Below are positions 18,547 through 21,109 of a stretch of 64,000 nt of DNA, one piece after another. The translations under genes were made by a program, and so were the position numbers. The stretch is from the NCBI GenBank assembly GCA_030052745.1, contig JANBVO010000046.1, forward strand, positions 1-64,000. The letters run 5' to 3'. A model generated the notes under the pieces. That model made no database searches, was not told where the DNA came from, and was given only the letters and a program-made list of their open reading frames with translations. How positions within the stretch are numbered: the first letter of the stretch is position 1; every line of letters begins with the position of its first letter. This DNA comes from Pleurostoma richardsiae (taxonomy: Eukaryota; Ascomycota; Sordariomycetes; Calosphaeriales; Pleurostomataceae).

Positions 18547-21109
18547 ATGGTGCGTCCAGGCCCCTGCGCCCCCCCGTCTCGCCGCTCGGCCAAGTGCCAG
18601 CGAGACCACACGCGCCCTGCTAATACCGCAATTCCGTGTCCAGGCCACCCCCGAATCCTTCATGTCCCGACCCGAAATGGTGAGTGACAGCGATCCAGGA
18701 CGCGCTGTTCGCCATGCCGACTAATTCGACTAGCTTGCCCCCTACATGACTCTCGAACAGAGGGGCAAAGTCATGGCCGAATACGTCTGGATCGATTCCG
18801 AAGGCGGCACCCGGTCCAAGTCGAGGGTGAGTCTCTGTCTGATCCGGACCCCCTTCCGGCCTCGGCGTCCACCGTCGCCTCCAGCCACTTGAATCCTTCC
18901 CATTCCCCCCCAAGAACCTCCCTTCCGCGCGCTTGCCAATCAGGGTCGTGCGGCTGGGCTTGTACCGTTGCACACAAGATATCCGGCCGCCTCTCCATCC
19001 ATCCACTCCAACAAGGCTGACATTTGAACCCTTCTGCGCAGACGCTCGACAAGAAGCCCGCCTCGGTCGATGACCTTCCTATTTGGAACTTCGATGGGTA
19101 CTGGTAGACCATCCCACATAAAATCATTGCCGCTAACAGATCACAGATCGAGCACCGGTCAAGCACCCGGCGACAACTCTGATGTCTACCTCCGGCCCGT
19201 CGCCATGTATCCCGTATGTCCTGCTGATCCGTTCCCCCTCTCTTTGCGCCTGCCGACGAATCGATTTCCCCGGCTTGCTCCGAGTCGAGAGGCGCTGAGA
19301 CTTCAGACCGACACCTCACTCGAGTCATTTGCTCCCAAAGGGCCAAAGACTTGCCCATTGCAGTGTCTTCTCCTTCCGTTTGCCTTGATCTTTTTTGCTG
19401 CCGCCATGGCTGACCAGAGCAACAGGATCCGTTCCGGCGCGACCCCAACATCCTAGTCCTCGCCGAGTGGTGAGTTTCTTCCCCACACGACGGACTTTGA
19501 GCAGCGATATCTGACCGTGTGTCTACACAGCTGGAATGCAGACGGGAGCCCGAACAAGCAAGTGGCCTCTACAAGCCTCCAAACCTAGTCTAACTAACCT
19601 GTCAGGTTCAATTACCGCCACGAATGCGCCAAGCTGATGGAGACTCATGCTCGCCAGGAGCCTTGGTTTGGCTTGGAGTTAGTTCCCTTTTTAGCCAAAA
19701 AGCCAGGAAGCCAACAACTGACCCACAACTAGGCAGGAGTATACGTTTCTCGATCTGTCGGATCGTCCGTTCGGCTGGTACGTCAACCCTCACCTATTAA
19801 CATCCGCGTACTGACCTTGACCAGGCCCGTAAATGTACACCAACCTTGCCCCTACTATTCCCCATCCATTGTCTAGCTTCTAGGAGTCTAACAGACCGTG
19901 ATAGGGATTCCCAGCACCGCAGGGCCCCTACTACTGCAGCGCTGGTGCGGGCAAAGTAGTGCTACGCGACGTTGTGGAAGCTCACTACCGCGCATGCCTG
20001 TATGCGGGTATCCAAATTTCCGGCACCAACGCGGAAGTCATGCCGTGAGTAGCCAGCCGGTCACGCCTTATGGCGTGTTCTAGTCCCCATCCCCAGATTC
20101 CCCGGCCCGGGCCCTCGGAGCCCCGGCATCCCCTAATATCTGCATCTCCCTGCCTTGCAACATTACTTACACCTGGTGACTATGTACTAACCCTGACCAA
20201 GTGCCCAGTGGGAGTACCAGGTGGGACCGGTAAGAACACCTTGGTCCTTTGCTGTGGGATTCGGTAGTCGCTGACTCATGTAGTGCCTCGGTATTGATAT
20301 GGGAGACATGCTCTGGATGAGTCGCTTCCTGGTATGTCGATGAGTTTTCGTGTCCTTTTGATGCAGCAAACTGACTTGAGACATGATAGTGTTAGTAATT
20401 TCTGAGCAGATCTGGGAGCTCAACCAACTCCCGGGGATATACGAGACTGACTATAGATAGTGCATAGAATCGCTGAGCAGTGGGGGGCAAAAGTTAGCCT
20501 TCATCCAAAGCCTATCCCTGGAGGTAAGCAACCGCATAAGTCAAAGCCAAGGGGGGCTGAGAATGGCTGGACAAAGACTAATCAAGCCCAGATTGGAATG
20601 GTGCTGGCCTCCACAGCAACTTCAGCACCCGTGAGATGCGGGCGGAAGGAGGCATGACCCACATTGAGGCGGCCATCAAGAAGCTTGCGAGCCGTCACAA
20701 GGAGCACATCCTCGTTTACGGAGAGGACAACGAGAAGCGTCTGACGGGCCGACATGAGACGGGCGCCATTGATCAGTTCACGTACGGTGTCGCTGACCGT
20801 GGATCCTCGATCCGCATTCCCCGAGAAGTTGCTGCCAAGGGATACGGCTACCTTGAAGATCGTAAGTGACGCAGCTTAATACCACTGTATACAAGATGAT
20901 CACTATACTAATACTGTCTAGGCCGCCCTGCTGCAAGTAGACATGATTCCTGCATGCTGTGCACCAAGACTAACTTGTTTTTCAGAGCAACGCCGACCCT
21001 TACCGCATTACTGGCATTATCATGGAAACGTAAGTAAATCTGAAAATGCCCTCGGCGTAGCATCCAGAACTGACAGGTCATAAGCTGCTTCGGTTCCGTG
21101 TCGGAGTAA
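18547..21109 (+). CDS. gln1: Glutamine synthetase, exceptionally intron-rich
   Basis: The enzyme makes glutamine from glutamate, ammonia and ATP in the cytosol. Exons: 18547-18549 (ATG only), 18644-18679, 18734-18826, 19042-19097, 19147-19213, 19426-19469, 19531-19557, 19606-19677, 19733-19777, 19825-19834, 19905-20044, 20202-20229, 20284-20331, 20390 (1 nt), 20461-20523, 20592-20861, 20922-20932, 20986-21029, 21085-21109. Total 1083 nt, 360 aa, the usual eukaryotic length. Visible motifs are [108 protein letters not shown] and the terminal METCFGSVSE. Two introns use GC donors (GCAAGT at 19558 and 20933). The 1-nt exon yields SRFLLHR; a single long intron ending at 20456 would add one residue. 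[10 protein letters not shown] is a little divergent from the usual CGVGTGKV, so a second paralogue is possible. Confidence 0.92.

Follow-up and report, generated by a model that had tools for sequence, protein, structure and literature searches.

How does a core metabolic gene keep its reading frame across an interruption of 129 nucleotides whose interior holds what look like the end of one intron and the start of another, a single base apart? The gene in question, encoded at 18547-21109 on the forward strand of the window (the whole stretch of 64,000 nucleotides that was analysed), is that of a class II (eukaryotic) glutamine synthetase (GS), and the interruption lies at 20332-20460. From its sequence, we propose that T20390 is very probably a constitutive single-nucleotide exon of the sole class II GS gene detected, flanked by two ordinary and complete introns, A and B, which would be removed sequentially.

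The proposed model of the gene comprises 19 coding exons and 18 introns, and its coding sequence of 1083 nt, with a TAA stop ending at 21109, specifies 360 amino acids; the first coding exon, which consists of the ATG only, the first intron and the gene end were placed by eye. Between 18653 and 21100, spliced alignment to the PDB entry 3fky, which we take to be the yeast glutamine synthetase, yields 17 introns and 354 residues with zero gaps. The protein is 65% identical to 3fky, and its initial hand-spliced version matched the same entry with an E-value of 1.9e-166. The full-length similarity to eukaryotic GS and the conserved residues place the enzyme in class II. Outside the interruption the gene is intact and accounts for the 360 residues, and its introns are short, with CTRAC branch sites, which, together with the identity to the yeast enzyme, points to a fungal gene. 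Two of them are GC-AG introns (19558-19605 and 20933-20985) with GCAAGT donors and CTAAC branch sites, and two more micro-exons, of 10 nt (19825-19834) and 11 nt (20922-20932), are found inside the gap-free match to the yeast enzyme. At the end of the 10-nt exon, the tandem donors GTAAAT and GTACAC lie six bases apart (19829-19840), and the choice between them would, as judged by eye, add or drop two residues (W-P-V-N-G versus W-P-G). In the genome (39.4 Mb, 136 contigs), a search with a 102-residue piece retrieved this locus alone and no second class II GS locus. The search for the Gln-synt_C family missed the GS gene itself, which has short exons, and could likewise miss a second intron-rich copy; the other Gln-synt_C genes among its matches (L007, L006) are FluG-like, on contig 49, and class-I-like, on contig 100, both labels being judged from the appearance of the proteins.

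Exon 13 (20284-20331), a number given by the preliminary description and correct provided that the ATG-only first coding exon is counted, ends in phase 0 with the residues S-R-F-L. It is followed on the same strand by intron A (20332-20389, 58 nt), which runs from GTATGT through the predicted branch site CTGAC at 20371-20375 to GATAG. After T20390, the candidate exon 14, comes intron B (20391-20460, 70 nt, phase 1), which runs from GTTAGT through a second predicted branch site CTGAC at 20447-20451 to another GATAG. Exon 15 (20461-20523) then opens with TG CAT AGA and carries H-R-I-A-E-Q, and the predicted junction reads TTCCTG-T-TGCATAGA. All these positions and motifs are exactly as first described. 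T20390 lies directly between the AG of one intron and the GT of the next, both introns possess complete signals with a CTGAC of their own, and the motif AGNGT occurs a single time within the 129 bases, at 20388-20392 (AG-T-GT). Scored with matrices derived from a small base of 32 introns, from which A and B were left out, the two introns total 21.0 and 20.5 bits, well within the 13.2-23.2 bits of the training set, and the strong signals attributed to both are borne out. Fifteen of the training introns are others of the GS gene, and the 17 extra ones bridge open reading frames elsewhere in the genome and were picked partly on donor strength, which makes the donor scores somewhat optimistic. The branch-site adenosine is 15 nt from the end of intron A and 10 nt from that of intron B, consistent with the 9-14 nt from the AG given earlier. 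The base preceding the donor of intron B is a T, which counts against a one-base exon; the commonest base before the donor in Fusarium introns is G (53%), according to the available part of the report (PMC5677156). A competing AG (20455-20456) is located 4 nt upstream of the intron B acceptor, and the resulting pair at 20455-20460, TATAG and GATAG, is four bases apart; the use of this AG is in frame, with one additional residue, when the one-base exon is skipped, and out of frame when it is kept. The RNA fold predicted for the 129 nt is unremarkable, its stability being like that of shuffled sequences (z 0.06), and pairing of the distal sites by structure is therefore not supported. No second copy of the 129-nt sequence was found in the genome, which gives no sign of a repeated element.

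Does an alignment that ignores this proposal arrive at the same exon? A spliced-alignment program run with 3fky as target and generic splice preferences, to which the claim was not supplied, picked the introns 20332-20389 and 20391-20460 around T20390. Over 24 settings, combining two target proteins, six intron penalties and two gap penalties, the one-base exon was the best solution in 18, two of them narrow (margins of 1.2 and 0.2), and the six settings with the heaviest intron penalties preferred a single ordinary 125-nt intron (20332-20456); at a penalty of -20 (four settings), the alignment lost further introns of the GS gene too. Apart from this preference under heavy penalties, the 125-nt intron has real merits. 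It is in frame, it has a strong donor and a CTGAC branch, its sites score the same as those of intron A, and its acceptor at 20456 is the first AG past the branch site of intron B. The gene also contains single introns of 157, 212 and 215 nt, so that a length of 129 nt is by itself unsuspicious. However, the branch adenosine would then lie just 6 nt from the intron end (the preliminary description had put the AG about 5 nt from the CTGAC), against at least 9 nt for the branch adenosine picked in the 32 training introns. Two introns of the GS gene do show a branch-like motif 8 nt (19558-19605) and 5 nt (20045-20201) from their end, and both also contain another CTAAC upstream, at 12 and 11 nt when counted by eye. 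A distance of 6 nt is thus uncommon in this genome without being impossible, and very short branch-to-end distances exist in some yeasts. The protein scores favour the one-base exon: fragments of about 200 residues reach 47.1 bits against Pfam with this exon, and 43.7 (the 125-nt intron), 43.1 and 36.5 bits with three rivals, while the alignment to the yeast enzyme scores 1324 against 1311 (again the 125-nt intron) and 1313.

A further constraint comes from the protein itself. The reading frame is anchored on both sides, by the conserved S-R-F-L up to 20331 and by H-R-I-A-E-Q from 20463. We enumerated models with either one GT/GC-AG intron or two, the first donor lying at 20318-20344 and the last acceptor ending at 20400-20484: 72 solutions are in frame, only six of which keep the length of the family, and the one-base exon is the sole one among these to keep L-H-R. 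The statement of the preliminary description that L-L-H-R preserves both the length and the residue of the family is thereby upheld. The five other length-keeping solutions all lose L-H-R, and each of them relies on one or more donors that score no higher than 0.2 bits. Among the candidates discarded are the donor at 20336 (GTCGAT, 0.2 bits) and exons of 5 and 8 nt and GC donors, which fail in frame, length, residues or the strength of their sites. With T20390 in place, the base and 20461-20462 form TTG, the codon of Leu224 (Leu220 in the 354-residue fragment), and the base is needed both for the frame and for this conserved residue. We compared the site with 50 bacterial class II loci, of which 48 cover it and two do not: a leucine stands at this codon in 48/48, as does an arginine two residues on. 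Over the 19 residues around the codon there is no length change in 47 of the 50 loci, the other three consisting of one interrupted by an N-run, which reads as 61 extra positions, and the two that do not cover the site; over a wider segment of 32 residues, length differs somewhere in five of 48, the locus with the N-run included. The yeast protein and 2uu7, presumably the mammalian glutamine synthetase, are ungapped at the site. In the class II GS gene of an Acidimicrobiaceae MAG contig (L074:701-1888), a run of unknown residues is seen right after the helix that holds this codon, where R-I-A-E-D-Y-D-V-V is present on both sides of the run, which is probably an assembly join. The 125-nt intron would thus turn L-L-H-R into L-I-V-H-R, one residue longer, at a place where 47 of 50 bacterial loci (the remaining three being uninformative), like the proteins of yeast and mammal, do not vary in length, and the leucine that all 48 relatives have ahead of H-R would be lost. 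The extra residue that the preliminary description had ascribed to this rival is real.

Could the split within the interruption be fortuitous? In dinucleotide shuffles of its interior, with the ends kept, some AGNGT was present in 3,179 of 20,000 sequences, and only 9 of the 20,000 yielded two good introns with a single base between them. The 125-nt intron leaves the complete split site at 20388-20396 to this chance, and we regard it, on the sum of these observations, as an unlikely account of the interruption. A strong intron pair (45-80 nt each) separated by 0-4 nt was found at this site alone in 282,002 bp of this genome, scanned on both strands with thresholds chosen after the site was known. 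With gaps of 0-15 nt, intron lengths of 45-110 nt and the strict threshold, it is still the sole pair in the 282,002 bp, and two looser thresholds raise the number of pairs to three and five, none of the others having a gap of one base. No such split is possible in the three long introns (215, 212 and 157 nt) of the GS gene. The internal split site is also left to chance if the interruption is taken as one intron of 129 nt (20332-20460), a flanking exon having lost a base by sequence error or by a real deletion in a broken gene. The donor, branch site and acceptor of that intron are all strong, but the frame is correct to the CTG ending at 20331 and again from the CAT at 20463, which would place the lost base precisely at the junction, a position free of homopolymers. 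Nothing else in the gene is damaged, and the 102-residue search revealed no further class II gene; such a loss is very unlikely.

The preliminary description hesitated between a one-base exon and a twin intron. The first alternative is that retained by the alignment blind to the claim, in 18 of 24 settings; the second, in the strict sense of a stwintron, finds no support. In a true [D1,2] stwintron, G20331 and T20390 would together constitute the external donor once intron A is removed. The unit does open with two successive Gs and has a T after the internal AG, as the type requires (PMC5639578), and a canonical internal intron does follow the first G and precede that T (G20331, intron A, T20390). 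However, the donor created by the removal of the internal intron would be GTGTTA, with -1.6 bits compared with 7.5 for GTTAGT, and the excision of the unit 20331-20460, that is 130 nt, breaks the frame. A [D1,2] unit ending at 20467 would keep the frame at the cost of deleting L-H-R, and its Pfam score falls to 36.5 from 47.1 bits. All six in-frame solutions that keep the family length retain exonic bases inside the unit, and we give the stwintron a probability close to nil. A recursive splice site, which is an AG|GT without any exon between, was likewise rejected: T20390 sits between the acceptor and the donor, and the frame needs it. These comparisons together argue strongly for the one-base exon as the best reading of the interruption.

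How would such an exon be spliced? In the route we propose, introns A and B would each be recognised by intron definition as an ordinary, complete intron of the U2 type. Intron definition has been reported for filamentous ascomycetes in work on stwintrons (PMC5639578). The acceptor of A and the donor of B, one base apart, would not be occupied together, because, to judge from the size of the machineries, a single base could not hold both, and the two introns would be removed one after the other. Whichever intron leaves first, the other would remain intact with a good site, and both orders would lead to CTG-T-TG-CAT, that is L-L-H-R; the removal of A first may be slightly favoured, since transcription completes A 71 nt ahead of B. 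Errors at this site are costly to the enzyme. Of five aberrant paths computed, the skipping of the exon with the acceptor at 20460 gives 265 residues before a stop, the retention of the base with the acceptor at 20456 gives 226, and the retention of intron A or of intron B gives 226 and 224 residues, respectively. The sole in-frame escape is the skipping of the exon with the acceptor at 20456, which yields a protein of 361 residues. One may then imagine two isoforms at comparable levels, one of 360 aa by inclusion with the acceptor at 20460 and the other of 361 aa by skipping with the acceptor at 20456. Each of these preserves the frame, unlike skipping to 20460, so that the 4-nt spacing of the acceptors fits the absence of the exon, but this dual output would require the 6-nt branch distance and an enzyme bearing an insertion, and it appears extremely improbable.

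A constitutive one-base exon at T20390 would bear on several questions. Single-base exons probe how small a piece the spliceosome can retain, and show that adjacent splice sites need not be bound together. The gene is a core metabolic one with one copy detected and, if this is the sole functional enzyme, its splicing must be efficient. The arrangement is also a hazard for annotation, as a predictor averse to tiny exons would call the 125-nt intron and its extra residue, which is what our own aligner did at heavy intron penalties. As to its origin, a base loss may have been rescued by a cryptic exon, or a second intron may have been inserted one base from an older one; if the latter is true, such pairs would be intermediates of one-nucleotide intron shifts. 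In the case of a fungal histone gene, near-coincident introns one nucleotide apart have been discussed and, in the available part of that report, their origin is left undecided (PMC10878826). If A and B can be removed in either order with a one-base spacing, the later loss of one of them would leave an orthologue with an intron shifted by one nucleotide. Could the present arrangement, with A in phase 0 and B in phase 1, be a snapshot of such one-nucleotide intron sliding, and the site a splicing checkpoint on nitrogen assimilation as well? The checkpoint is suggested by the fact that most mis-splicing paths truncate the sole class II GS detected; we hold this combined view to be a doubtful, though conceivable, one. 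A comparison of relatives could reveal whether such pairs account for introns whose position varies by one nucleotide from species to species.

It remains to place this exon among the known systems, as far as the accessible portions of the cited reports describe them. A literature search combining glutamine synthetase with single-base exons found no paper on the combination, nor did a search on fungal GS gene structure with all terms together. The preliminary description, which called single-nucleotide exons extremely rare and named one in Arabidopsis, is out of date on this point: a fungal example supported by RNA reads appeared in February 2026 (PMC12940212). This exon, in CYP621A, is found in 20 Fusarium orthologues and is covered by 18 RNA reads from two species, and its authors present it as the second single-nucleotide exon known and the first in a fungal gene (PMC12940212). 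The proposed GS exon would share several of its features: both are in fungal nuclear genes, as one base between two short introns, a base required for the frame and for a conserved motif, and in both the interruption is roughly double a typical intron in length (139 nt in CYP621A, 129 nt in GS) (PMC12940212). The two differ in their motif, AG-G-GT in CYP621A and AG-T-GT in GS, and in the position of the base, the second of a glycine codon in the former and the first of a leucine codon in the latter; moreover, the CYP621A exon is documented by its 20 orthologues and its reads (PMC12940212), whereas that of GS, a core metabolic gene, is predicted from the sequence of one genome. The origin proposed for CYP621A is a base loss rescued by a cryptic exon (PMC12940212). 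In the Arabidopsis APC11 gene, the single-nucleotide exon described in 2015 and tested with reporter constructs also lies as one base between AG and GT, in contrast in a plant gene and within an interruption of 422 nt (PMC4674806). The authors of that work favour intron definition and a recursive, one-after-other removal, and likewise argue that the flanking sites cannot be occupied together (PMC4674806). Mitochondrial one-base exons are represented by the placozoan cox1 (PMC5436844) and by a survey (PMC12308204), and plant micro-exon surveys may hold further cases (PMC8831610, PMC12409088).

With the fungal stwintrons of the [D1,2] and [A2,3] types, the GS site would share two U2 introns per site and two consecutive reactions, and in both the direct joining of the outermost sites leads to a frameshift (PMC5639578, PMC9024468, PMC12403724, PMC7138796). 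In the overlapping [D1,2]/[A2,3] stwintrons, a single G is common to both introns (5'-AGT), and the internal intron must be removed first (PMC9024468). Unlike them, the GS introns are one base apart, neither interrupts the other, and their order of removal would be free. To our knowledge, no exonic base is retained at the ratchet points of recursive splicing. Such points, described for large introns, resemble our proposal in the stepwise removal via successive sites (PMC4674806), and the GS gene would differ in keeping one coding base. The GS exon would therefore be a further case of a known and very rare kind, unrelated to the earlier ones in gene and in motif.
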